DNA from: Saccharothrix sp. NRRL B-16314
GTDB taxonomy: Bacteria > Actinomycetota > Actinomycetes > Mycobacteriales > Pseudonocardiaceae
DNA: 64,000 nucleotides
Reading direction: 5' to 3'
Assembly: GCF_000716595.1 (NCBI RefSeq)
Contig: NZ_JNXC01000001.1
Coordinates: 248,001 to 312,000 of the forward strand
Positions 37,496 to 53,271 of the stretch are shown piece by piece. Below the pieces are notes generated by a model. It was not told the DNA's origin. It searched no databases and was given only the letters and a program-made list of their open reading frames with translations. The first letter of the stretch is position 1. Each line of letters begins with the position of its first letter. Made by a program: the position numbers and the translations under genes.

Positions 37496-38692
37496 GTGCG
37501 CCGCTGGCCACTGTGGACGCTCAAGCGGTCCGCGCTGGTCTACTGGCTGCTCGTCGACCTCGGCGCACTGGCCGTCGTCGTCTTCGCGATCGTGTCGTCA
37601 CCCCAGCCGACACCGGCTGAGATCGGCCGGTTCGCGGCCGTCGCGGGCACCGCCGGCGCCGTGATCATCGGCAGTTCGATCTACAGCCACCGGGTGGGCG
37701 AGCCCGAGCGGAACCCGTGGGCCGCGCACCTCTGCTACCTGACCGCGGGCCTGGTGGCGTTGCCGAGCAACCTGCTCGTGCTGCTGCTCTTCGGCCCCGC
37801 GCTGCACGGCGTGCTGGCGCAACGCCCCGAGTCGCACCGCTGGGTGTTCACCCTCTCCGCGACCGCGCTGGCCGTGTTCAGCACCCGCTACGTCATCGGC
37901 TGGGCCCAGCCGAGCACGGACCTGGCGGTCATGGTGCTCGGCGCGACGGTGCTGCTGGTGGTCCGGGCGGGCGTGATCGCGCTCGGCCTGAAGCTGCGCA
38001 ACCCGAGCGCGCCCGGCGAGGAGGTCGTCGGCGAGCCGATCGACGTCGTGCTGGGCATCGTCGCGGTGAGCATCGGCGGCCTGATGGGCTTCTCCTCCGC
38101 CACCACCGCGGTCCACGCGCTGATGGCCGGGCCGCCGCTGGCCCTGCTGGAACGCGCCGCGCAGCTGCCGCACTGGCGGCGTTCCGCGCAGCGCGACGCG
38201 AAGACCGGCCTGGCCAACGCCGTGCACTGGGACGGCCGCGCGCGGTACGAGCTGTCGAAGGCGCGGACCCGCAGCCGGCCGATGGCCGTGATGCTGCTCG
38301 ACCTCGACCACTTCAAGCGGGTGAACGACGAGGTCGGCCACCTCGCGGGCGACTCGGCGCTGAGCGCGGTGGCGCTGCTGCTCACCAACACCGTCCGCAG
38401 CGGCGACCTGGTCGGGCGGTTCGGCGGTGAGGAGTTCGTCGTGCTGCTGCCCGACGCGGAACCGGCCATCGCGCGTTCCGTGGCGCAACGCGTGCGGCAC
38501 GCCGTGGCCGACCTGGCCGTGCCCACGGTCGGCACGGACGGCAGGGAACACCTGCTCACGGGGCTGACGGTGAGCATCGGCGTGGCCACCACCCAGCGGT
38601 TCGGCTACGAGCTGCCGGACCTGCTGGTCGCGGCCGACGCCGCGCTGCTCGCCGCCAAGGGCTACGGCCGCAACCTGGTCGAGATGGCCTGA
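37496..38692 (+). CDS. Membrane diguanylate cyclase (GGDEF)
   Basis: 398 residues. About six membrane helices (residues 12-210) are followed by a complete GGDEF domain: DLDHFKRVNDEVGHLAGDSAL, GGEEF at 310-314, and the inhibitory I-site RSGD five residues before it (RSGDLVGRF then GGEEF). Intact A- and I-sites predict an active, product-inhibited c-di-GMP synthase. In actinomycetes c-di-GMP controls development through BldD. The GTG start has GGGAGGG seven bases upstream. It converges on the AI-2E gene with almost no gap. Confidence 0.93.
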   Translation: MRRWPLWTLKRSALVYWLLVDLGALAVVVFAIVSSPQPTPAEIGRFAAVAGTAGAVIIGSSIYSHRVGEPERNPWAAHLCYLTAGLVALPSNLLVLLLFGPALHGVLAQRPESHRWVFTLSATALAVFSTRYVIGWAQPSTDLAVMVLGATVLLVVRAGVIALGLKLRNPSAPGEEVVGEPIDVVLGIVAVSIGGLMGFSSATTAVHALMAGPPLALLERAAQLPHWRRSAQRDAKTGLANAVHWDGRARYELSKARTRSRPMAVMLLDLDHFKRVNDEVGHLAGDSALSAVALLLTNTVRSGDLVGRFGGEEFVVLLPDAEPAIARSVAQRVRHAVADLAVPTVGTDGREHLLTGLTVSIGVATTQRFGYELPDLLVAADAALLAAKGYGRNLVEMA

Positions 38693-40027: not shown

Positions 40028-42394
40028 GTGACCGCCGACGACCCCGCCAACACCGCCGCGACCGTCGACGCCGAGCCCGCCGCAGCCGCCGAGCCCGCAG
40101 ACATCGCCAAGCCCGCAGACACCCCCGTTGCGGTCGAACCCGCCCGGATCGCCGCCGCCACCGCCCCGTCCGCCGCCACCGCCCCGTCCGCCACCACCAG
40201 ACGAGCCGCCGCCACCCCTCGGAGCGTCGAAGACGCCGTGCGCGCCGCGTTCGCCGCCGGACGCCCGCTGCGGTTCGACCCGAAGGCACCCAAGCGCGAG
40301 CGCACCGTCCGGGGCGAACTCCTGTCGTCCCTCCTCGCCGACGGCCCCCGGAACGCCGCCCTCCGCCTGGTCGGCGCGAACGTCGTCGGCCTGTTCGCGG
40401 TCGAGGGTGCTCGGGTCGAGCACGTGATCGACTTCCTCGACTGCACCTTCGAACGGCCACCGGACCTCCGGATGGCACGCCTGATCGGCCTGCGGATGCG
40501 CGGCTGCAAGGTGCCCGGCCTGTGGGGTCGGAACCTGCGCGTCGCCAGCGACCTGGTGCTGGAGGCCGGTTTCACCAGCGACGGCGTGGTCGACCTGACC
40601 GACGCCACGGTCGACGGCACGTTCCGGCTGGCCGGCGCCGTGCTGCGGAGCAAGGGCGGCGACCACGCCCTGCTCGCCGCCCGCATCCGGCTGTCCGGCT
40701 CCCTCCAGGCCATCGCGCTGCGCGCGGGCGGTGAGGTGCGGTTGCGCGGCGCGAACGTCGGCGGGAACGTGCACCTCGGCGGCGCGCGCCTGCTCAACGC
40801 CGGCCAGAACGCCCTCGACGCCACCGGCGCCACCATCGCGGGCAACCTGTTCTGCGACGCCGAGGGCGGCCGGTTCACCGCCGAGGGCCGCATCCTGCTC
40901 GACGGCGCGCGCGTCGGTGGCAGCGTCGTGTTCTCCGGCGCCCGCCTGCACGCCAGCGTGGTCGACCGCCCGGTCCTGGTGATCCCGCGCGGCACGGCCG
41001 ACGAGGCCGCCGCGCTCGTCGCCGACCGCCTCCGGGTCGACGGCAACGTGGAACTGGACGACGGCTTCACCTCGTCCGGCACGGTCCGCCTGCCCAACGC
41101 CGACATCGGCGGCTACCTGCGGCTGTCCGGCGCGGTGATCGGCCGGAAGGACGTGGTGCGGGAGCAGACCGATCACACCGGCGACCAGCGCATCCCGGTG
41201 GCCCTGCACGCCGACGGCATCCGGGTGCGGGGCGACCTCGAAGCGCGCGGCGCGGTCGACGGCGGCTTCAAGGGCGACGGCGAACGCGACTCCGCCCTGT
41301 GCGCGTACGGGCAGGTGCGCCTGGTGGACGCGCACGTGCGGGGCAGCGCGTCGCTCTCCGGCGTCCAGCTGCACGGCCCCGGCATCGACGTCCTGTTCGC
41401 CGACCGCCTCCGGGTCGGCGGCACCCTGTTCCTCCGCGACCTGCGCGCCCGCGGCTCACTGCGCCTCCAGAACGCCGAGATCGGCTCCACCCTCGACTGC
41501 TCCGGCGCGTCCCTGCTCGCACCGCGCCGCCGCCCGGACGGCACCGTGAAACCGTCGCTGGACGCCCGCGTCGCCACCATCGGCAAGGACTTCCTGTGCA
41601 GCCACGGCTTCACCGCCGTCGGCGGCGTGCGGACCAGGCTGGCCGAGGTCGGCAAGATGGCCACGTTCGCCGGTGCCCGGCTGGGCGGTCCGGGCAGCGA
41701 CATCGCGCTGAACGCCTACGGGCTCACGGTGAGCCAGCTCGTGCTGCGGCTGTCCGAGGACCGCACCCCGGTCGGCCGGGTCGTGCTGACCAGGGTGCGC
41801 GCGACGACGGTGCTGGACGGGCCGGGCCTGTGGGCCGCGACGGGCGGTGTGGACGTGGAGGACTTCACGTTCAGCTCGATCTCGTCCACGCCGCACGTCG
41901 GCGTGCGCACCCGGCTGCGGTGGCTGCGCGAGGTGCAGCCGGACTTCGCGCCGGGACCGTACGAGCAGCTGGCGGCGGTGTACCGGGACGGCGGCGAGGA
42001 GGAGCTGGCGCAGGCCGTGCAGCTGGAGAAGCAGCACCGGCGCTACTCGGAACTCGGTGTCGCGGGCCGGGTGTGGGGCTTCCTCCAGCGCTGGACGGTC
42101 GGCTACGGCTACCGGCCGTGGCTCGCGATCGCCTGGCTGGCCGCGTTCTGGCTGGCCGGCTCGGGGTGGTTCCTCGGCCACGAGATGCCGAAGCTGAACG
42201 AGGACGAGTCGCCGTCGTGGAACGCGTGGCTGCTGTCGATGGACCTGCTGATCCCGATCGTGGACCTCGGCCAGGACGGCAAGTGGCGGTTCAGCGGCGC
42301 CTCGCAGTGGATCTCCAGCACGCTGATCGCGGTGGGCTGGATCCTGGCGTCCACGGCCGCCGCCGGCGCGGCACGGGTGCTCAAGCGCGTCTGA
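40028..42394 (+). CDS. Large beta-helix membrane protein (bactofilin-like repeats, C-terminal helices)
   Basis: 788 residues. A disordered Ala/Pro-rich start (1-70) leads into about 20 short beta-turn repeats (residues 110-600) with the pattern hVxGxhxhxGAxhxxxGxxAL, for example VDGTFRLAGAVLRSKGGDHAL and IGGYLRLSGAVIG, likely a right-handed beta-helix. The region around 640-690 is helical (QLAAVYRDGGEEELAQAVQLEKQHR), and two or three transmembrane helices end the protein (about 700-788). Streptomyces homologs are labelled membrane-associated oxidoreductase, but I see no redox cofactor motif. Starts at GTG. Function unknown. Confidence 0.8.
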   Translation: MTADDPANTAATVDAEPAAAAEPADIAKPADTPVAVEPARIAAATAPSAATAPSATTRRAAATPRSVEDAVRAAFAAGRPLRFDPKAPKRERTVRGELLSSLLADGPRNAALRLVGANVVGLFAVEGARVEHVIDFLDCTFERPPDLRMARLIGLRMRGCKVPGLWGRNLRVASDLVLEAGFTSDGVVDLTDATVDGTFRLAGAVLRSKGGDHALLAARIRLSGSLQAIALRAGGEVRLRGANVGGNVHLGGARLLNAGQNALDATGATIAGNLFCDAEGGRFTAEGRILLDGARVGGSVVFSGARLHASVVDRPVLVIPRGTADEAAALVADRLRVDGNVELDDGFTSSGTVRLPNADIGGYLRLSGAVIGRKDVVREQTDHTGDQRIPVALHADGIRVRGDLEARGAVDGGFKGDGERDSALCAYGQVRLVDAHVRGSASLSGVQLHGPGIDVLFADRLRVGGTLFLRDLRARGSLRLQNAEIGSTLDCSGASLLAPRRRPDGTVKPSLDARVATIGKDFLCSHGFTAVGGVRTRLAEVGKMATFAGARLGGPGSDIALNAYGLTVSQLVLRLSEDRTPVGRVVLTRVRATTVLDGPGLWAATGGVDVEDFTFSSISSTPHVGVRTRLRWLREVQPDFAPGPYEQLAAVYRDGGEEELAQAVQLEKQHRRYSELGVAGRVWGFLQRWTVGYGYRPWLAIAWLAAFWLAGSGWFLGHEMPKLNEDESPSWNAWLLSMDLLIPIVDLGQDGKWRFSGASQWISSTLIAVGWILASTAAAGAARVLKRV

Positions 42395-42562
42395 TCACAC
42401 GCCGTGACGGTCGACAACACGGAGTGTTCGTCACACGATACGGCGAACAGGGCGGCGATCGAGTGCGCCGGCGACGCACCTACTGGCACGCTCTCGTCGT
42501 CGGCTTGATCACCGGATCACGTCGCCGGCGAAACCCAGGGCTTCCAGGCGGAGGTAGCAGCG

Positions 42563-43417
42563 ATGTCGCACGTCGACCAGCGAGAGGGATCGGGGGCGAG
42601 CCGCGTTCGGCGGCTGCTCTCCCGCGCCCTGCTGGTCGTCGGCGGCACGCTGGCCGGCTCCGCCGCCGCCTGGGCGCTGGCCGCGGCTCCGGCGTCGGCG
42701 CAGGAACCGGTCGACCAGGTCACCGGCACCACCTCGCTCACCGATGTCACGGTGGCGCGGCACAACCCGTTCGAGGCCACGCTCGACGAGGCCACCCGGA
42801 CGCCGGTCGGCCGAACCCCGGTCACGCTGGACCAGGTCGTGCCGGTCCCCGTCGGCGAAGCCGTGCGAGAGCTCGACACCACGATCCGCACCCCACGGGT
42901 GCGCGAATCCGGCCCGCCTGACATCGGCCGCGTCACCGGAGACCTCCGCGACGCCGTCGAGAACTTCGGCGGCTGGTTCCAGACGCGCACGTCCGAGCAG
43001 TCGACCACCGAAGCGGTGGCCGGCGGCGACTCGGCGCAGCGCGTCACCGAGGCCACCCCGGCCGCCACCGCCGCGCCGGTTCCCGCCGGTACCCCGGTGG
43101 TGCAAGGGGTGTCCCGCAAGGCCGGCCCGATGTGGCTGGACCTGACCCGGCAGGCGAACACCGCGCTGCCGGCCGACACCGGTTCGTCGCTGCCCGGCGG
43201 CCCCTCCGGAATGCCGTTGATGCCGTTCGCGCCGCTCGGCGCGCCGGTCCACTGCTCCTGCGGTGGCGACGCTTCCGGTTCCTCCGGCGGCGGCAACGGC
43301 CCGTTCTCGGCCGTCTCGACCGACCGTTTCGACGCCGCGGTGGCCAGGGCTCTGTTCCCCGCCACCGAGCGGAACGTCGTGGCACCGGGCAAGCAGCCCG
43401 GCACCACGCCCGACTGA
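42563..43417 (+). CDS. Secreted protein of unknown function (partner of the repeat protein?)
   Basis: 284 residues: twin-basic N-terminus (RVRRLLSRALL), signal peptide ending ASAQE (about 47), then a low-complexity extracellular protein with conserved-looking VTLDQVVPVPVGEAVRELD and a PVHCSCGGDASGSSGGG segment near 230. No enzyme motif. It lies 199 nt upstream of the chaplin-like gene on the same strand. Both are exported, Cys-poor and rich in small residues, so they may act together at the surface (inference). Confidence 0.65.
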   Translation: MSHVDQREGSGASRVRRLLSRALLVVGGTLAGSAAAWALAAAPASAQEPVDQVTGTTSLTDVTVARHNPFEATLDEATRTPVGRTPVTLDQVVPVPVGEAVRELDTTIRTPRVRESGPPDIGRVTGDLRDAVENFGGWFQTRTSEQSTTEAVAGGDSAQRVTEATPAATAAPVPAGTPVVQGVSRKAGPMWLDLTRQANTALPADTGSSLPGGPSGMPLMPFAPLGAPVHCSCGGDASGSSGGGNGPFSAVSTDRFDAAVARALFPATERNVVAPGKQPGTTPD

Positions 43418-43616
43418 CCACAGCGCGCGGTCCGCGGCAGCTCGTCCACGAGCTGACCCGGTGATCGACCGGCGCGCTGTTCGTCTGCGCTGCCTTCCCG
43501 GTCGACGTGCCGCGCCTTCCACGCCCCCCGATCAGGGTGGTCGTCCGTCTGTGACGCGGTTTCCGCGTCCGACCACCCCTCACCTCCCGCAAGGGACACC
43601 GAAAGAAGGAGAACTC

Positions 43617-46600
43617 ATGCAAACCTGGGCCAAGCGCGGTCTCCAGACCGCACTTGTCACTGGTGGTTTGCTGATGCTCGGTACGGGCATCGCTTCAGCC
43701 CAGGACAACGTCAACCCCGACGCACCGCCGAACCCGCTCGACGCGAAGGTGCGCATCCCGGTCGACGTCGACCACAACAACCTGGGCACCCCGGCGGGCA
43801 ACCGCGACCTGCCGACGATCCACCGCGAGATCGCCACGCCGACCGTCGCGGGCCTGCTCCCCGGCCGCGCCGCCGCACCGGCCAACCCCCTGGTCCGCGG
43901 CGCGCAGCACCGGCTGGACTCGGTGGACACGTCGCACCTCACCCGCGGCAACACCGCCGACGCCGACGTGGTCGTGCCGGTCAGCGCGTGCGGCAACGCG
44001 ATCGCGGCGGGCGGCGACGCCTACAGCGACAACACCTGCACCCGGTCCGTCTCGAGCACCGGCGACACCAAGACCGACGGCTCGTACGGCACCCTGGCCG
44101 GCAACGTGGCGCAAGGCGCTGCGGCGGTCTCACCGCAGGTCGACGGCAACGCGATCGCCGCGCTGGCCAACGCCGAGGCCCGCGGCTCCTCCGAGCAGCG
44201 GGCGGTCGCGGGCGGTGACGTCCAGACCTCCGGCCAGGACGGCTCGCTGTCCGGCAACATCGCCGCGGTCCAGGGCGCCGTGCCGGTCCAGGTGACCGAC
44301 AACGCGGTCGCCGCGGGCGGCAACTCGCACACCGACGCCTCGGCGTCCAACAGCACCGCCGCCGGCGGCTCGCTGACCACCACCGGTGACCGCAGCTCCG
44401 GCGGCGGCAACGTCCTCGGCGCGCCGCTCGCCCCGATCGTCGCGGTCAGTGGCAACGGTGTCGCCGCCGCGGGCACCGCCGACGCGATCGCCGAGAACCA
44501 GGCGTCCGCCGACGCGGGCGACACCCGCGTGAACCGCTACGGCACGCCGATGTGGTCCACCACCTCCGGCAACGGGAGCACCCTCGCCGGCAACACCGTC
44601 CAGCCCGCCTTCGCCGGTCCCGTCGCCACCGGCGGCAACGCCCTGACCGGCGGTGGCCTCGCCCGGGTCGACAACTCGATGGAGCACACCGCCGAAGCCG
44701 GCGGCAACAGCTCCACCTCCGGCCAGGACTCGGTGCTGTCCGGTAACTTCGCCGACTCGCCGGTGGCGTTGCCGGTGTCCAACGCGGGCAACGCGACGTC
44801 CGGCGTCGGCACCACCACGGCCCGGCACTCGAACGAGGCCACCGCGACCGCGGGCGGCGACACGTTCACCAACGGCGACCGGTCCGTCCTGTCGTCCAAC
44901 GGTGCGCACCTGCCCCCGGCCGGCGCGGTCGACCTGTGCGGCAACGGCACCACCGCGGGCGGCATCGCCGAGGGCGGCTGCCGCAACGACGTCATCGCGG
45001 ACTCCGGCGGCTACAACGGCACGACCGGCAACGACGCGGTCGGCTCGGGCAACGTCGGCCAGGTCCCGATCGGCGCGCCCGCCGAGGCGTTCGGCAACGG
45101 CACCGGCGCGGTGGGCACCCCGTCGGGCCGGGCCACCGAGACCAAGGTCATCCGCTCGGGCCGCGTGCCGACCAGCATCGACGACAACGGCACGGTGTCC
45201 AGCAACGTCGTGTCCACCCCGACCGCCCTGGGCGGCCAGGTGTTCGGCAACTCGGGCGGCGCGGTCGCCAACCCGACGTCGCGGACCGACAGCGACACCA
45301 CGATCGACCTCGGCAACCCGCCGAGCGCCAACGGCCGCCACGGATCGGTGTCGGGCAACGTCGTGCACGCGCCCACCTCGAACCCGGCGCAGGTCTTCGG
45401 CGACTCCGTCGTCGGCGTCGGCAACGGCGCGTCCGCCACGAACAACCGGCTCGACTCCCGCTCGGGCGGTTCGGCCATGACCACCGGCGACGAGGGCTCG
45501 CTCTCGGGCAACGTGGTGTCGCTGCCGGAATCGTCGTCCCCGCAGGTGTTCGGCAGCGCGGTCGGCGCGGGCGGCAACGCCCGGTCCGACAGCACCAACG
45601 ACTTCGCCTCCCGCTCCGGTGGCGACGTGCAGACCTCCGGTGACGACGGCTCGTTCTCGGGCAACGGCGTCGGCGCCCAGCCGGCGGTTCCGCTCCAGGT
45701 GTTCGGCGACGCCGTCTCGGTCGCCGGCAACGGCACGTCCCGGACGGACAACAAGGCCGGCCTGACCGCCGGCGGCCGGCACCTGACGTCGGGCGAGGAC
45801 AGCGCGTGGTCCGGCAACCTGGTCACCGCGCCCGCGGGCGTGTCGCCGGCGGTGCACGGTGACGCGGTCAGCGTCGGCGGCCTCGCCGACACCGCGACCG
45901 GCAGCCGGTCGTCCAGCCGGTCCGGTGGCGAGACCACCACGTCCGGCTACGGCGCCGCCAGCGCGCGGGACATCGAGGTGCCCACCGAGGCGTTCGCCCG
46001 CCTGTTCGGCATCCCGCTGGACGTGCTCGGCACCGCCACCGCCAACACGCAGGACCGCAACGACGTGCGGACCGGCGCGGACAGGGCGGGCGAGGCACCG
46101 GCCGTCGGCGTGACCCGGGGCATCGAGCTGCCGGCCTCGGTCGACAGCCTCTTGGGCGCCACCGAGCTGCCGAGCCTGGACATGCTGCAAACGCTGCCGG
46201 GGTACCTGATGACGCTCCACACGCCGCGCCTCGGCGGGCTCGAAGGCCTGCCGGTCAAGGGCCTGGCGGGCGTCGACCCGGCGACCCGCGCGGTGGTGGC
46301 GCAGGCGCCGAAGCCCGCCGTTGCCGGGCCGACCTCCGGCCTGGACGACGCGACCGCCGTGCTGCCGAAGCTGGAGCTGCCGACCGAGCAGCTGCCCGCC
46401 GTGCCGCAGGTGGACGCTCTCGCGCCCGTCACCGACCAGCTGCCGCAGGTCGGTGTGATCGACCCGCTCGGCAAGGTCGAGGACACCCGGCACGCGCTGC
46501 CGACGATCGTGGACCGGCTGAGCGGCGTCACCCGTGAGCTGCCCGTCGTGTCCGCGGTGTCGGGCGTGTCCCGCGCCGCGGCGACGCGTTCCGGGATGTC

Positions 46601-46997
46601 CGGTGCCGAGCTGTCCCGCGCCGCGCGGGCCGACGCCGCCGAGGACCGTTCGTTCGGCGGCACCCTGCCGCTGGTCGGCGACCTGGGCGCCACGCCCGGT
46701 CTGCAGCAGCAGCTGCCGCTGAACAGCGTGCCGGTCGTCGGCCGGATCGCCCGCGGCGCGTCCGTCGCGGTCCCGGCCGCGCTGCCGTTCGTGCTGCCGA
46801 CGCCGGGTCTGGCCCAGCCGCGCACCGCGGCCCCGGCCATGCCGCAGATGGCGTTGACCGGCCTGAACGTCAACCCGCACCAGGGTCTGCGGACGAACGA
46901 CCTCACGAACCGCACCCAGGCGCCCGCGCTGGCCGGCATCGACGCCCGCACCGTGTTCAACTCGCTCGAGGACACGACCGTGATGCCGCGCATCTGA
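43617..46997 (+). CDS. Large secreted chaplin-like beta-repeat surface protein
   Basis: 1126 residues with a signal peptide (MQTWAKRGLQTALVTGGLLMLGTGIASAQD, cleavage near 28). From about 105 to 778 there are some thirteen repeats of the form SGNVV-x-P-x-VFGNAV-x-GGNA, resembling the chaplin motif of Streptomyces (SGN, then P, then CGN). Repeats from 320 onward have an exact 51-residue period. Cysteine pairs remain in only two of them (C125/C141, C441/C455). The C-terminal third (780-1126) is Pro/Leu-rich and unfamiliar; no LPXTG or membrane anchor is seen. The ATG has AAGGAG about 7 nt upstream. It likely forms or coats the hyphal surface; PE-PGRS-like annotation is possible but the repeat is different. 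Confidence 0.8.
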   Translation: MQTWAKRGLQTALVTGGLLMLGTGIASAQDNVNPDAPPNPLDAKVRIPVDVDHNNLGTPAGNRDLPTIHREIATPTVAGLLPGRAAAPANPLVRGAQHRLDSVDTSHLTRGNTADADVVVPVSACGNAIAAGGDAYSDNTCTRSVSSTGDTKTDGSYGTLAGNVAQGAAAVSPQVDGNAIAALANAEARGSSEQRAVAGGDVQTSGQDGSLSGNIAAVQGAVPVQVTDNAVAAGGNSHTDASASNSTAAGGSLTTTGDRSSGGGNVLGAPLAPIVAVSGNGVAAAGTADAIAENQASADAGDTRVNRYGTPMWSTTSGNGSTLAGNTVQPAFAGPVATGGNALTGGGLARVDNSMEHTAEAGGNSSTSGQDSVLSGNFADSPVALPVSNAGNATSGVGTTTARHSNEATATAGGDTFTNGDRSVLSSNGAHLPPAGAVDLCGNGTTAGGIAEGGCRNDVIADSGGYNGTTGNDAVGSGNVGQVPIGAPAEAFGNGTGAVGTPSGRATETKVIRSGRVPTSIDDNGTVSSNVVSTPTALGGQVFGNSGGAVANPTSRTDSDTTIDLGNPPSANGRHGSVSGNVVHAPTSNPAQVFGDSVVGVGNGASATNNRLDSRSGGSAMTTGDEGSLSGNVVSLPESSSPQVFGSAVGAGGNARSDSTNDFASRSGGDVQTSGDDGSFSGNGVGAQPAVPLQVFGDAVSVAGNGTSRTDNKAGLTAGGRHLTSGEDSAWSGNLVTAPAGVSPAVHGDAVSVGGLADTATGSRSSSRSGGETTTSGYGAASARDIEVPTEAFARLFGIPLDVLGTATANTQDRNDVRTGADRAGEAPAVGVTRGIELPASVDSLLGATELPSLDMLQTLPGYLMTLHTPRLGGLEGLPVKGLAGVDPATRAVVAQAPKPAVAGPTSGLDDATAVLPKLELPTEQLPAVPQVDALAPVTDQLPQVGVIDPLGKVEDTRHALPTIVDRLSGVTRELPVVSAVSGVSRAAATRSGMSGAELSRAARADAAEDRSFGGTLPLVGDLGATPGLQQQLPLNSVPVVGRIARGASVAVPAALPFVLPTPGLAQPRTAAPAMPQMALTGLNVNPHQGLRTNDLTNRTQAPALAGIDARTVFNSLEDTTVMPRI
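44574..45950 (+). repeat. Nine 51-codon (153-nt) repeats of the surface protein
   Basis: Units begin at residues 320, 371, 422, 473, 524, 575, 626, 677 and 728. Each starts near a DGS-x-SGN motif and ends in a GGD-x-x-TSG motif. Spacing is exactly 51 residues while the sequence between anchors has diverged, implying an old duplication kept in register by structure. Confidence 0.85.
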
Positions 46998-47013
46998 TCC
47001 ACCACCCTCCCGC

Positions 47014-47050
47014 GACAGGGCCCCTGGCACGACGTGCCAGGGGCCCTGTC
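47014..47050. terminator. Bidirectional terminator between convergent genes
   Basis: A perfect inverted repeat of 18+1+18 bases (arm GACAGGGCCCCTGGCACG) lies 17 nt after the surface-protein stop and 11 nt from the PAS-GGDEF stop. It can terminate transcripts from both sides and is the longest perfect hairpin seen in the window. Confidence 0.85.
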
Positions 47051-47060
47051 CCGTGTCGGG

Positions 47061-47843
47061 TCAGGTGCGCAGGCGTTCCTCGACGTGCGCGACCACCGAG
47101 TGCGGCGGCGCGTCACCGTCACTGGTCACCCAGCACACCCGCACGCCGGGCCGCACCCGCGCGCCGCCGAGCCGCACCGCGCGACCGGCCAGCTCGTGCA
47201 CCCGTTCCGCGACCGCCTCACCGCTGCCGTCCGGGTGCTCCGCGACCACGGCGAACGAATCACCGCCGTACCGCGCCACCGTGTAGTCCGCCCGCAAGCC
47301 CTCCCGCAGCCGGCGGGCCAGCACCGCGAGCAGCTCGTCACCGCGCCGGAAGCCGTGGGCCGCGTTCACCGCCGCCATCCGGTGCACGTCCACCAGCACC
47401 AGCGTCGCCAGCGTCCCCTGCGTCCGGGCGCGGATCAACGCCTGGTCCAGCCGGTCGAGCAGCAGCGCCCGCCCCGGCAGCCCGGTCAGCGCGTCGAGCA
47501 GCCCGGCGCTGTGCGGCACGTCCGACTGCACCGGTCGCAGCAGCACCAGGACCTGGCTGCGCGAGGTGATCGGGTGGTAGTCGGCCCAGACCTGGGCGTG
47601 CGGCAGCACCACCGGGATCGTCAGCGGCGACCCGGTGCGCAGCACCTGCGCGGCCAGCTCGGCGCAACTGGGCAACGGCGCACCGGAGTCGTCACGGGCC
47701 GAGGCGTCGCCGAGCAGCGTCGACGCCAGCCGGTTCGCCGCGAGGACCACGCCGTTCTCGTCCTGGAGCAGCACCCCGACCGGCAGCGCGGAGACGAATT
47801 CGTCCCACACCGCAAGCGAAGCCGTCATCTGCACGGTACTCAT
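47061..47843 (-). CDS. PAS-GGDEF protein with a degenerate active site
   Basis: 260 residues: PAS-like sensor (about 12-105, SALPVGVLLQDENGVVLAANRLASTLLG) then a shortened GGDEF domain (LDALTGLPGRALLLDRLDQAL...). The signature is GGDSF (193-197) instead of GG(D/E)EF, and no RxxD I-site precedes it. Cyclase activity is therefore doubtful; it may bind GTP or c-di-GMP or act as a sensor. It is convergent with the surface-protein gene. Confidence 0.85.
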   Translation of the reverse strand: MSTVQMTASLAVWDEFVSALPVGVLLQDENGVVLAANRLASTLLGDASARDDSGAPLPSCAELAAQVLRTGSPLTIPVVLPHAQVWADYHPITSRSQVLVLLRPVQSDVPHSAGLLDALTGLPGRALLLDRLDQALIRARTQGTLATLVLVDVHRMAAVNAAHGFRRGDELLAVLARRLREGLRADYTVARYGGDSFAVVAEHPDGSGEAVAERVHELAGRAVRLGGARVRPGVRVCWVTSDGDAPPHSVVAHVEERLRT

Positions 47844-47892
47844 GGGCTCGTGCCTTCCGCCGAGCGCAGCGCCTGTCCGTGAAGAGCCTCCA

Positions 47893-47923
47893 CTCGGGCC
47901 ACGGGCTTTTCAATAGGCCCGAG
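47893..47923 (-). terminator. Stem-loop at the end of the exonuclease gene
   Basis: CTCGGGCC/GGCCCGAG, an 8-bp stem with a 15-nt loop, overlaps the exonuclease stop codon region and precedes the PAS-GGDEF gene on the same strand. No U-run, so termination is likely but not certain. Confidence 0.45.
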
Positions 47924-48794
47924 GCCACCCGGTCCGGTGATCTTTGGCCGGCGGTGTAACACCCAGGCTGCCGAGCATCCCGGCGAAGTCCACCTCGGAC
48001 ACGATCGGCACCCGGTACGCCCGCGCCCGCTGCGCCTTGCTCGACAACGTGAACGGGTCCGCGGCCACGAGCACCCTGGTCGCCTTGGTCACGTACCCCT
48101 GGCTGACCAGCCCGAGCGCCGCCGCCCGGTCGATCCACTCGTCGCGCGGCGAGCGCATCTGCCCGGTGAACACCACCCGGTCACCGCGGGCCAGCGTGAC
48201 CGACTCCGACCGTCGCCGCGGCACCGCCGCCGCCCCGCGTCGCACCTCGGCGACATCCCCGCGCAGCGGCACGTCCGGCACCGGCTCGGCGTCCGGCACG
48301 CCGAAGCCGACGTAGTGGGCGAACAACCGGGCCGTGGCGCGGGCGTCGTGCAACGCGGAGTGCGCCGATTCGAGCACCACCCCGGCCGCCTCGCAGCACG
48401 CCCTCAGCGAACGCCCGACCCGCTCCGGCAGGTACCGGGCGGCGAGCCGCATCGTGCACAGCCCGCCCACCGGCAGGTCCACCCCGATGCGGGCGAACTC
48501 GGCGGTCAGGAACCGGGCGTCGAAGGACAGGTTGTGCGCGACGACCACCCGCCCCGCGAGCCGCGCCGCCAACGCGCCGGCCGCGTCCGCGAACGTCGGC
48601 GCGTGCCACACGTCCGCCGCCCGGATCCGGTGCACGTGCTGCGGCCCGAGGTCACGTCCGGGGTTGAGCAGGGTGCACCACTCGCCGGTCACCCGACCGG
48701 CGGAATCCAGCTGCACGACGGCGACTTCGACGATCCGGTCCGAACCACGCGCGGCGAAGCCGGTCGTCTCCACGTCGACCACGGCGTACTCCAT
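47910..48794 (-). CDS. DnaQ-like 3'-5' exonuclease with BRCT domain
   Basis: 294 residues. DEDDh exonuclease fold: ExoI VVDVETTGF (D7, E9), ExoII VVAHNLSFDARFL, ExoIII HSALHDARATARL with the His-Asp pair. A BRCT domain follows (about 200-285, GDRVVFTGQMRSPRDEWIDRAAALGLVSQGYVTKATRVLVAAD). Related to the epsilon subunit of DNA polymerase III; stand-alone actinobacterial versions probably act in repair. The nicked-DNA binding role of the BRCT is known for the family and inferred here. Confidence 0.9.
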   Translation of the reverse strand: MEYAVVDVETTGFAARGSDRIVEVAVVQLDSAGRVTGEWCTLLNPGRDLGPQHVHRIRAADVWHAPTFADAAGALAARLAGRVVVAHNLSFDARFLTAEFARIGVDLPVGGLCTMRLAARYLPERVGRSLRACCEAAGVVLESAHSALHDARATARLFAHYVGFGVPDAEPVPDVPLRGDVAEVRRGAAAVPRRRSESVTLARGDRVVFTGQMRSPRDEWIDRAAALGLVSQGYVTKATRVLVAADPFTLSSKAQRARAYRVPIVSEVDFAGMLGSLGVTPPAKDHRTGWPRAY

Positions 48795-50859: not shown

Positions 50860-53271
50860 TCAGCCCTGGGCGAGGTCGGCGAAACGGCTGTAGTGCAGCT
50901 GGTGGGCGACGGTGATGGTGGCGGTGGGGCCGGCGCGGTGCTTGGCGATGATCAGGTCCGCCTCGCCGGCCCGCGGGTCGTCCCGCTCCCACGCGTCCGG
51001 GCGGTTGATCAGGATCACCATGTCGGCGTCCTGCTCCAGCGAACCGGATTCACGCAGGTCGGACAGCTGCGGACGCTTGTCGGTGCGTTGTTCCGGGCCA
51101 CGGTTCAGCTGGCTGATCGCGATGACCGGCACCTCCAGCTCCTTGGCGATGAGCTTCAGGTTCCGGGAGAACTCGGACACCTCCTGCTGCCGCGACTCGG
51201 TCCGCTTGCCCGACGACATCAGCTGGAGGTAGTCGACGACCACCAGCCGCAGGTCGTGGCGCTGCTTCAACCGCCTCGCCTTGGCCCGGATCTCCATCAT
51301 GGTCAGGTTCGGCGAGTCGTCCACGAACAGCGGCGCCTCGCTGATCTCGCTCATCCGCCGGGCGAGCCTCGTCCAGTCGTCATCGCTCATCCGCCCACCG
51401 CGCATGTCACCGAGCCTGATCCGCGCCTCGGCGGACAGCATGCGCATGACGATCTCGGTCCGCGACATTTCCAGCGAGAAGATCGCACTGGTCAACCCGT
51501 GCTTCACCGAGCACGACCGCGCGAAGTCGAGTCCCAGGGTCGAGTTGTGGGTCGGGATCATCGACCGGCCGGCGAGGTAGAGGTGGTCGGCGTTGTCCAC
51601 CTCGACGCAGCGCACCGGCACACTCGGGATCGGGCGGACGTCGACGATGAACCGCGACCCGGTTCGGACCGCGCTCCGGCTGCGCCGCCGTTCCTTGAGC
51701 ACCAGTCGCTTCCGCTCCAGGTGGAACACGTCGTCGTCGGTGCCGAAGGTCAGGACGTAGGCGGTGGAAGTGAGCTCGCCGCGCCCGCGAACCCGCTTGG
51801 TGGTGGTCGAGCACCGGTAGCCGAGGCTCACCACCAATTCACGGACGTCTTCGGCGAGGCGCCGGTCGGTCACCGCGAACTGCACGGACCCGCCGGCCGT
51901 CACCGTGCCGTCGGTGTCGAGCAGCCCCGCCAGCAGCGCCCGCCGTTGTGCGACGGATGCCCGCAGGTAAGTCGTCGGGATGTGCTTGTCCCCCAGCACG
52001 CCGAGGCCGCGCAGAAGCGCCTGCACCGGGCTCGACGTGGGCGAACCGGGAACGGGCAGCTCGATGTCGTGGAGCAGTCCGCCCCGAGGCACGACGTCGT
52101 AGCCCTCGGCCTCGATGTTCCACGCGATCTCGGGATCCGCCGCGGTGAACCTGGAGCTCGCGGGGTGTCCGTCACCCAACCACGCGCCGAGCGTGTACGG
52201 ACCGATGGGCAGCGACGCGTCCGGCAGGTCCAGCGGTCGGGTGGTGGACACCGAGTGGTTGAGCCGTCGGTCCGCCGTCTCGCAGCGCAGGCTCGCGGCG
52301 ATCTCCTGCGTCGTGCGGACACCACCGATGGCGCGCTGTCGCCCCACCTCGGTCTCCCGTGCCGAACGGCGTGACGCCCTGGTCTCGGTGAGCCACTGGT
52401 GTTCGCCATCGGCCACCAGCACCGAGCCGTCGGAGAACTCGACCTCGTAGCACGGCCTGCCACGCATCACCTCGGTCGCGGCCACCACCGTCGTGGGCCG
52501 GCCGTCGGCGCCGATGAGCCGGTCGCCCACGGCGACCTCGCCCATGGTCGTCCACCCGGTGGGGGTGACGAGAGGGGTGTCGAGCGCGAGGGCCTTGCCC
52601 ACACCCGGCCGGGCCGCGACGATGATCATCTGCCCGGGGTGGAGGCCGTTGGTCAGCTCGTCCAGGTCGGCGAAGCCGGTGGGGATGCCGAGGGACGAGC
52701 CGCCGCGCGAGGCGATGGCGTCGATCTCGTCCATGGTCGGCTGGAGCAGCTCCTCCAGCACCACGTAGTCCTCGGTGGTGCGGCGCTCGGTGACCTCGTA
52801 GATCGCGGCCTGCGCCCGGTCGACCACCTCGTCCACGTCGGCGCCCTCGGCGCCGTTGTAGCCCAGCTGGACGATCCGCGTCCCGGCCTCGACCAACCGC
52901 CGCAGCACCGCCTTCTCCGCCACGATCTCGGCGTAGTAGGACGCGTTCGCGGCCGTCGGCACGGTGGCGATGAGGGTGTGCAGGTACGGGGCGCCGCCGA
53001 CGCGCAGCAGCTCACCCCGGCGCTCCAGCTCGGCCGACACCGTGATCGGGTCCGCCGGCTCACCCCGCCCGTACAGGTCGAGGACGCAGTCGTACACGGC
53101 CTGGTGAGCGGGCCGGTAGAAGTCGTTGGGCGCCAGGACCTCGACCACGTCGGCGATCGCGTCCTTGCTCAGCAGCATCCCGCCCAGCACCGACTGCTCG
53201 GCGGCGAGGTCCTGCGGCGGCTGCCGTTCGAAGCCGGGCTCGGCCATGCCCCGGTCGTCCACCAGCGCCAC
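50860..53271 (-). CDS. dnaB: Replicative DNA helicase DnaB with intein
   Basis: 803 residues: N-terminal DnaB domain (about 18-120, PPQDLAAEQSVLGGMLLSKDAIADVVEVL), RecA-like motor interrupted by an intein after GVGK (226), and the continuation STLGLDFARS with FSLEMSR, VVVDYLQLMSS and AISQLNRGPEQRTDKRPQLSDLRESGSLEQDAD. Without the intein the protein is about 453 residues, normal for DnaB. It unwinds DNA ahead of the replisome as a hexamer; the intein sits in the ATP-binding loop and must be spliced out. The chosen GTG gives MALVDDRG; a GTG three codons and an ATG eight codons later are alternatives. It lies after rplI with a 412-nt gap full of DnaA boxes. Confidence 0.95.
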   Translation of the reverse strand: MALVDDRGMAEPGFERQPPQDLAAEQSVLGGMLLSKDAIADVVEVLAPNDFYRPAHQAVYDCVLDLYGRGEPADPITVSAELERRGELLRVGGAPYLHTLIATVPTAANASYYAEIVAEKAVLRRLVEAGTRIVQLGYNGAEGADVDEVVDRAQAAIYEVTERRTTEDYVVLEELLQPTMDEIDAIASRGGSSLGIPTGFADLDELTNGLHPGQMIIVAARPGVGKALALDTPLVTPTGWTTMGEVAVGDRLIGADGRPTTVVAATEVMRGRPCYEVEFSDGSVLVADGEHQWLTETRASRRSARETEVGRQRAIGGVRTTQEIAASLRCETADRRLNHSVSTTRPLDLPDASLPIGPYTLGAWLGDGHPASSRFTAADPEIAWNIEAEGYDVVPRGGLLHDIELPVPGSPTSSPVQALLRGLGVLGDKHIPTTYLRASVAQRRALLAGLLDTDGTVTAGGSVQFAVTDRRLAEDVRELVVSLGYRCSTTTKRVRGRGELTSTAYVLTFGTDDDVFHLERKRLVLKERRRSRSAVRTGSRFIVDVRPIPSVPVRCVEVDNADHLYLAGRSMIPTHNSTLGLDFARSCSVKHGLTSAIFSLEMSRTEIVMRMLSAEARIRLGDMRGGRMSDDDWTRLARRMSEISEAPLFVDDSPNLTMMEIRAKARRLKQRHDLRLVVVDYLQLMSSGKRTESRQQEVSEFSRNLKLIAKELEVPVIAISQLNRGPEQRTDKRPQLSDLRESGSLEQDADMVILINRPDAWERDDPRAGEADLIIAKHRAGPTATITVAHQLHYSRFADLAQG
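51544..52593 (-). mobile_element. Class 3 DnaB intein with LAGLIDADG endonuclease
   Basis: 350 residues (227-576 of the precursor), inserted inside Walker A of DnaB (GVGK|A...N|STLGL). Residue 1 is Ala, not Cys/Ser, so it cannot start splicing the standard way. The class 3 WCT set is present: W293 (GEHQWLT), C555 (PVRCVEV) and T574 in IPTHN, with final His-Asn and Ser +1. Two LAGLIDADG-like motifs (LGAWLGDGHP, LLAGLLDTDGT) suggest an endonuclease that may still home. Start and end were placed from the conserved splice blocks. Confidence 0.9.

Follow-up and report, generated by a model that had tools for sequence, protein, structure and literature searches.

A 64,000-nucleotide stretch of DNA from Saccharothrix sp. 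NRRL B-16314 (contig NZ_JNXC01000001.1, positions 248,001 to 312,000), referred to in the following as the window, contains an open reading frame (ORF) at positions 43617–46997 on the forward strand that encodes a secreted protein of 1126 amino acids with 12–13 related units. Judging by sequence comparison, this giant protein is almost certainly homologous to the chaplins, which coat the spores of Streptomyces, and structure prediction and covariation strongly support a model in which each 51-residue unit very likely forms one rung of a beta-solenoid. As a whole, the protein is probably a giant, mostly cysteine-free poly-chaplin; made with a secreted partner of its own, it would form a covalently pre-stacked rod or fibre of amyloid-like character on the surface of Pseudonocardiaceae hyphae. 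What is new is the proposed structure, a stack of chaplin units with one unit per rung; the kind of protein is not in itself unique.

The ORF, its start, the signal peptide and the four cysteines at residues 125, 141, 441 and 455 were found in the translation as given in a preliminary description of the window. Using the pattern [SAG][GS]N as an anchor, clear unit starts were located at residues 161, 212, 263, 324, 375, 426, 477, 528, 579, 630, 681 and 732, corresponding to steps of 51, 51, 61 and then eight times 51, or exactly 51 in 10 of 11 cases. One further unit precedes residue 161, starting at about residue 111, and a hidden Markov model (HMM) built from the protein's own units gave 13 matches. 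These results agree with the previously described 13 or so repeats, nine of them spaced at exactly 51 residues. The repeat region was also present as described, but its end had been placed too early: the folded stack runs to about residue 820 and is followed by a separate tail. Residue autocorrelation over residues 105–800 was 0.33 at lag 51, 0.28 at lag 102 and 0.22 at lag 153, all above the maximum of 0.155 reached at any lag in 500 shuffles. The mean identity between units was 27%, and Tandem Repeats Finder, run over 42000–48000, detected no DNA tandem repeat within the repeat region (two short arrays were both elsewhere). In light of this low identity and the lack of DNA repeats, the 51-residue period seems to be of old origin and maintained by selection, not a product of recent duplication.

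At least 477 database proteins matched the giant protein. This search and a second one, with a poly-chaplin from another family, were limited to scoring the candidates with most words in common and to listing 120 proteins each, so that the totals of 477 and 462 are lower bounds. The unit number was nearly fixed, with 13–14 HMM matches in 113 of the 120 listed homologues, and at 7 of the 11 intervals, all within residues 324–782, the 51-residue step was exact and free of insertions or deletions in all 120. Only the interval 263–323 varied much, being 51 residues long in 54 homologues and 61 in 35. Residues 20–28, in the signal peptide, were almost invariant, and 107 of the homologues had four cysteines. 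Three relatives (L013, L014 and L025) contain one in-frame TGA each and may represent broken genes or sequencing errors.

When compared to PF03777, the chaplin profile, the giant protein scored 38 bits (cut-off 21; E 1.5e-9), with five stretches at E up to 1, while NCBIfam gave no match up to E 1. Of the 120 listed homologues, the giant protein included, 88 carry PF03777 in their precomputed annotation. A gapless alignment of 33 columns was obtained between a profile of the homologue units and one built from 61 canonical chaplin domains, collected from 27 loci in genomes with best PF03777 matches of 95–106 bits. It scored 32.3, compared to a maximum of 14.2 among 100 column-shuffled decoys. 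This comparison was partly anchored, as units and canonical domains were both picked by patterns containing glycine–asparagine (GN) spacing, a bias from which the PF03777 match is free; the regular expression used caught 1009 units in the 120 proteins, fewer than the HMM. The assignment of homology stated above follows from the profile score, above all decoys, and the PF03777 match, and bears out the chaplin relatedness proposed earlier. According to the excerpts of the literature cited here and below, the hallmark of the chaplin domain is three GN motifs at fixed spacing (PMC13251363), chaplins have one or two domains each (reviewed in PMC5618241, PMC7766987), and chaplin domains form amyloid in Streptomyces (PMC5618241). 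The SGN-x12-xGN register of the units is the same as in canonical chaplin domains. Glycine or asparagine exceeds 50% at unit positions 2, 3, 17, 24, 25, 32, 39, 40 and 46, which places the third GN (24–25) nearer than in chaplins.

Like ChpA–H of Streptomyces, the giant protein is secreted and has the SGN-x12-xGN spacing and GN turns, and two of its units keep the cysteine pair. It differs in having 13 units rather than one or two, 11 of them without cysteines (four cysteines in 13 units, in keeping with the mostly cysteine-free protein first described), in its 51-residue unit, in being hydrophilic and acidic on average, the chaplin domain being typically highly hydrophobic, and in lacking a sortase motif, long chaplins being sortase-anchored. 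The cysteine pairs were reported to be essential in ChpH (PMC7766987), while ChpE and the second domain of ChpB are exceptions among the chaplins in this respect (PMC13251363, PMC7766987). The repeat region has a grand average of hydropathy (GRAVY) of -0.23 and an isoelectric point (pI) of 4.4; mean GRAVY was -0.09 for the other listed giants, +0.02 for poly-chaplins and +0.30 (range -0.46 to 0.79) for the 61 canonical domains. An LPxTG or LAxTG motif occurred within the last 60 residues in only 1 of the 120 homologues. The window protein was not the one; its tail has neither a sortase motif nor an evident membrane helix. Because cysteine pairs are scarce, the repeat region is hydrophilic and acidic and the sortase motif is lacking, we refer to the protein as a chaplin-unit protein, not a chaplin.

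AlphaFold2 predicted a confident all-beta stack over residues 108–820, with predicted local distance difference test (pLDDT) values mostly above 90, and 81–89 towards the end. In the model, the N-terminal cap has strands at residues 41–52, 55–58, 61–64 and 68–73 and is possibly a degenerate first unit. The tail (residues 830–1126) was taken as disordered from its prediction. The solved structure closest to the model was the curli amyloid subunit CsgA (R15.5 of Pontibacter korlensis, PDB 8c50), which was also the best match to the model of a Nonomuraea poly-chaplin, predicted with lower confidence (mean pLDDT 66). Adhesins and other non-amyloid solenoids were also among the matches of both models. 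The Foldseek rows all had E above 0.1 and were not taken as evidence of relationship. No solved structure could be matched by sequence to the giant protein, to a poly-chaplin or to a canonical chaplin domain, the best E being 0.56 for an unrelated lectin, and a search of the openly licensed literature showed no chaplin fibril structure. CsgA shares the beta-solenoid fold predicted for the giant protein; it differs in having no sequence match to it among solved structures and in its curlin repeat of about 23 residues (PMC10192328), compared to 51. The profile autocorrelation of the giant protein was 0.22 at 51, 0.046 at 22 and negative at 24–27. FapC of Pseudomonas also has one imperfect repeat per cross-beta layer, with solved layers at 45–96 and 110–161 (52 residues each) and a third at 173–234, of up to 62 residues (PMC12392863). 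Unlike the giant protein, it has three repeats with linkers and a Greek-key layer. FapC was not among the structural-match listings, which do not exclude it, and no FapC sequence match was sought beyond the solved-structure search.

Covariation over residues 324–782 was calculated as mutual information with average-product correction from 184 aligned sequences (effective number 72), reduced from 221 rows by dropping duplicates and the partial protein P0038, which was also left out of the unit-profile analysis. Among the top 300 couplings, 62 fell at separations 49–53, where 6 were expected; the counts at 49, 50, 51, 52 and 53 were 10, 5, 36, 3 and 8, respectively, with 1.2 expected for each. 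Mean coupling was highest at 51, followed by 102, 49, 53 and 153. The means formed a comb of odd numbers, with 47, 49, 51, 53 and 55 above 48, 50, 52 and 54, as expected of parallel, in-register beta-strands, in which side chains alternate faces. The separation-51 signal also alternated along unit positions 18–37, where 18, 20 and 22, and then 25, 27, 29, 31, 33, 35 and 37, stood above their neighbours; positions 3, 42 and 43 were strong as well.

Homogenisation of the units might produce such a signal. Against this explanation, pairs with less than 20% identical residues showed as strong an effect (16.8% vs. 13.7% in the top 1%). Together with the side peaks at 49 and 53, these pairs also argue, though not fully, against gene conversion as the sole cause. 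Unit-by-unit permutation of the rows abolished the signal (0 in 20 runs), a weak control because shared lineage is removed too. An arrangement with two rungs per unit was rejected: the profile showed no 25–26-residue signal, and separations 23–28 jointly stayed at expectation (6 couplings in the top 300, 7.6 expected). Separation 25 alone, however, had 4 of the top 300 compared to 1.3 expected. Model and covariation together are in line with the stacked beta fold suggested earlier.

Listed relatives of the giant protein were found in Saccharothrix, Lentzea, Actinosynnema, Umezawaea, Kutzneria and Kibdelosporangium, among others, and Amycolatopsis also carries them; Saccharothrix, Lentzea, Amycolatopsis and Kutzneria are mycelial. 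Several relatives are already annotated as "chaplin family" or "beta strand repeat-containing" proteins. The giant-family alignment matched 119 of 150 Pseudonocardiaceae genomes at E 0.001, 83 of these at E 1e-90 or better, and some of the weaker matches cover pieces only, such as the N-terminus. In five genomes (G205, G264, G268, G224 and G168), the listed matches span the first 60–85 positions of the alignment (in G168 also the C-terminal part), and the N-terminus of the giant protein may thus occur on other secreted proteins. The strain's own genome held no convincing second copy of the 104-residue N-terminus (best other E 0.57).

PF03777 was detected in 54 of the 150 genomes, at 83 places, 74 of them in frames of at least 938 residues and nine in frames shorter than 600, with a limited number of candidates scored per genome. 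In the strain's own genome, the single PF03777 place was the giant gene. Since the PF03777 places are mostly in long frames, and in this genome only in this gene, the giant protein is the main chaplin-type protein in Pseudonocardiaceae, a family with hardly any canonical chaplins. The sole short chaplin of canonical strength among the 150 genomes (G192:C10:42589-42717, 76 bits, 87-residue frame) was possibly acquired. In a class-wide sample, genomes of one family that bears strong chaplins (f33) had 5–15 PF03777 matches each. According to a 2013 survey covering 100 actinobacterial genomes, the genera with chaplin-like genes outside Streptomyces include Kitasatospora, Catenulispora, Stackebrandtia, Thermobifida, Streptosporangium, Nocardiopsis and Arthrobacter; Pseudonocardiaceae are not named among the chaplin bearers in the excerpt of that survey (PMC4255298). 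A search of openly licensed papers, a set that most older chaplin papers fall outside, yielded no description of a chaplin-repeat protein with so many units. The initial impression of an unmatched unit number thus holds for the literature searched, but not for the databases, with their 477 or more relatives and multi-unit poly-chaplins.

The poly-chaplin used in the second search (L169, from another family of the same order) had at least 462 database relatives. Many of those listed came from Nonomuraea, Actinomadura and Microbispora and are annotated as "chaplin family protein". Seven cysteine-bearing units were counted by regular expression in 80 of the 120 listed, and the two that were scanned (P0246 and P0196) had eight PF03777 stretches each. 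For the model and consensus, 109 of the 120 were aligned; the 11 left out by eye were mostly shorter. These proteins share with the giant protein the many chaplin units per secreted chain, a Leu/Pro-rich linker and a similar start (MRTWAK-like, compared to MQTWAK in the giant protein). They differ in having a cysteine pair in most units and a C-terminal hydrophobic helix with a basic end, and in their unit steps, mostly 53–56 residues (15 shown) rather than 51. LPxTG or LAxTG was found in none of the 120. In L169 and L170, both from one genome, a regular expression picked out nine and six chaplin units, respectively, at regular spacing and mostly cysteine-paired. Each of the two proteins has a C-terminal hydrophobic helix, preceded in L169 by LPVTG; they are possible intermediates between the canonical and giant forms.

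The gene at 42563–43417 had been proposed as a partner, and the two genes are indeed linked: of the 80 named loci, which are the best 80 among 161 relatives, 79 have a frame with the C-terminal sequence Q-[PA]-G-x-[TNA]-P-D whose stop lies 145–247 bases upstream of the giant gene. In the remaining locus (L111), the sequence ends at the partner position. A cruder first pattern had picked up the motif in 69 of the 80. The corresponding QPGxTPD DNA pattern (T form, TAA or TGA stop) has one match in the strain's whole genome. The body of the partner diverges quickly, with tblastn finding it in 47 of the 80 loci, which leaves the C-terminus as the part under constraint. The partner matched no family in Pfam or NCBIfam up to E 1. 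For the gap between the genes, long hairpins were predicted (z -2.07), and 7 of 200 shuffled sequences were equally stable. A riboswitch ahead of the giant gene was rejected, as there was no Rfam match up to E 1, and no BldN-like or WhiG-like promoter motif was detected upstream of either gene with a loosened consensus.

In the model that we favor, about 13 PF03777-type units would fold after secretion into an in-register parallel beta-solenoid, one unit per rung, with the GN turns stacked in ladders. Short chaplins would assemble such a cross-beta arrangement out of individual molecules, and the giant chain would be its covalently pre-stacked form. The chain would be made and released to the cell surface together with the partner and its QPGxTPD end, serving there as an amyloid-like rod or fibre. 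We consider an extracellular structural fibre or coat about as likely as not, and head-to-tail polymerisation rather less likely. The function of the partner and a role in surface or aerial growth are likewise what we infer. It is conceivable, though doubtful, that one chaplin domain equals one cross-beta rung and that the giant family is the same amyloid fused into a genetically fixed 13-rung fibre segment with defined ends. The segment would then be assembled with the partner, with QPGxTPD as a docking or processing signal, the giant proteins would replace the short chaplins in Pseudonocardiaceae, and they would be a template for chaplin amyloid.

The main competing explanation is a stable, monomeric beta-solenoid rod, acting as an adhesin, spacer or surface scaffold without polymerising, in which cap and tail guard the ends and chaplin ancestry supplied the fold only. 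The confident, strand-rich cap, the 300-residue tail, the acidic, hydrophilic surface and the adhesins and other non-amyloid solenoids among the structural matches would all fit such a rod, as would the near-fixed unit number, which is expected of a rod of defined length. However, CsgA ranks first for both models and Streptomyces chaplin domains form amyloid (PMC5618241), and we consider the monomeric rod rather unlikely. A hydrophobic surfactant coat that raises aerial hyphae as the Streptomyces chaplins do appears improbable: the PF03777 unit and the mycelial genera would be consistent with it, but the GRAVY and pI of the repeats, set against the mean of the canonical domains, and the absence of a sortase motif are not. 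The cysteine pairs, reported to be essential in ChpH (PMC7766987), are also lacking in 11 of 13 units, as they are in ChpE and the second ChpB domain. Finally, 53% of the residues are A, G, T, S or N, and both the period and the chaplin likeness might be composition effects in a Gly/Ser/Asn-rich low-complexity protein. Neither the shuffled sequences nor the shuffled-column decoys reached the observed values, and with the position-specific, indel-free conservation and the covariation, this explanation was rejected as most unlikely.

Table 1. Features of the giant gene, its partner and the sequence between them (window positions).
Feature	Position	Strand	Basis
Secreted partner protein, 284 aa, signal-peptide-like start	42563..43417	+	ORF; 75 homologues
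Partner C-terminal motif Q-[PA]-G-x-[TNA]-P-D, then stop in relatives	43394..43417	+	79/80 named loci
199-base gap, predicted hairpins and conserved ribosome-binding site	43418..43616	+	Spacer 145–247 bases in 79 loci
Giant chaplin-unit protein, 1126 aa	43617..46997	+	ORF and translation; PF03777 E 1.5e-9; 120 homologues aligned
Signal peptide, residues 1–28 (KR, hydrophobic core, ASA/Q)	43617..43700	+	Sequence; cleavage site inferred
Strand-rich N-terminal cap, residues 37–80	43725..43856	+	AlphaFold2 pLDDT 92–96 over residues 41–70
Predicted beta-solenoid of chaplin units, residues 108–820	43938..46076	+	AlphaFold2 pLDDT; covariation at separation 51
Cysteine pair 1, C125–C141	43989..44039	+	Sequence; each Cys present in 112/120 homologues
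Sole irregular interval, residues 263–323, 61 not 51 residues	44403..44585	+	Unit starts
Nine units in exact 51-residue register, residues 324–782	44586..45962	+	Unit starts; homologue alignment
Cysteine pair 2, C441–C455	44937..44981	+	Sequence; each Cys present in 114/120 homologues
C-terminal tail, residues 830–1126, Leu/Pro-rich	46104..46994	+	Sequence; pLDDT 28–46

The locus looks like a stable chromosomal one, not a mobile one. Within 6 kb, 76 of the 80 named loci have an AI-2E transporter gene on the upstream side and 55 have dnaB on the downstream side. The six neighbours scanned had AI-2E, pentapeptide, GGDEF (two), exonuclease and TetR matches; no Csg family was among them, a result that covers these neighbours and not the rest of the genome. 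The two GGDEF diguanylate cyclase genes, at 37496–38692 (+) and 47061–47843 (-), flank the pair on both sides and were matched by tblastn within 6 kb in 33 and 38 of the 80 loci, respectively. Cyclic di-GMP controls Streptomyces development, and a link between these genes and the pair is possible. Directly upstream of the partner, an ORF at 40028–42394 (+) encodes a protein of 788 amino acids that weakly matches pentapeptide repeats and has hydrophobic segments in its C-terminal part; it was found in 43 of the 80 loci. The DnaB protein (50860–53271, -; 803 amino acids) has a LAGLIDADG homing-endonuclease-type insertion in its C-terminal domain, probably an intein, whose presence probably varies among relatives, judging by differing match lengths.

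A folded single chain of chaplin units lends itself to crystallography or imaging more readily than a fibril, which makes the rung model directly testable and, through the giant protein, the fold of the whole chaplin class of coat proteins as well. If the model is true, the fixed unit boundaries would make the protein a direct template for chaplin amyloid in general, whose structure is unsolved. The results also suggest the use of covalently stacked chaplins, together with a partner gene that is unnamed in Pfam and NCBIfam, in a large family of filamentous actinomycetes from which canonical chaplins are nearly absent.

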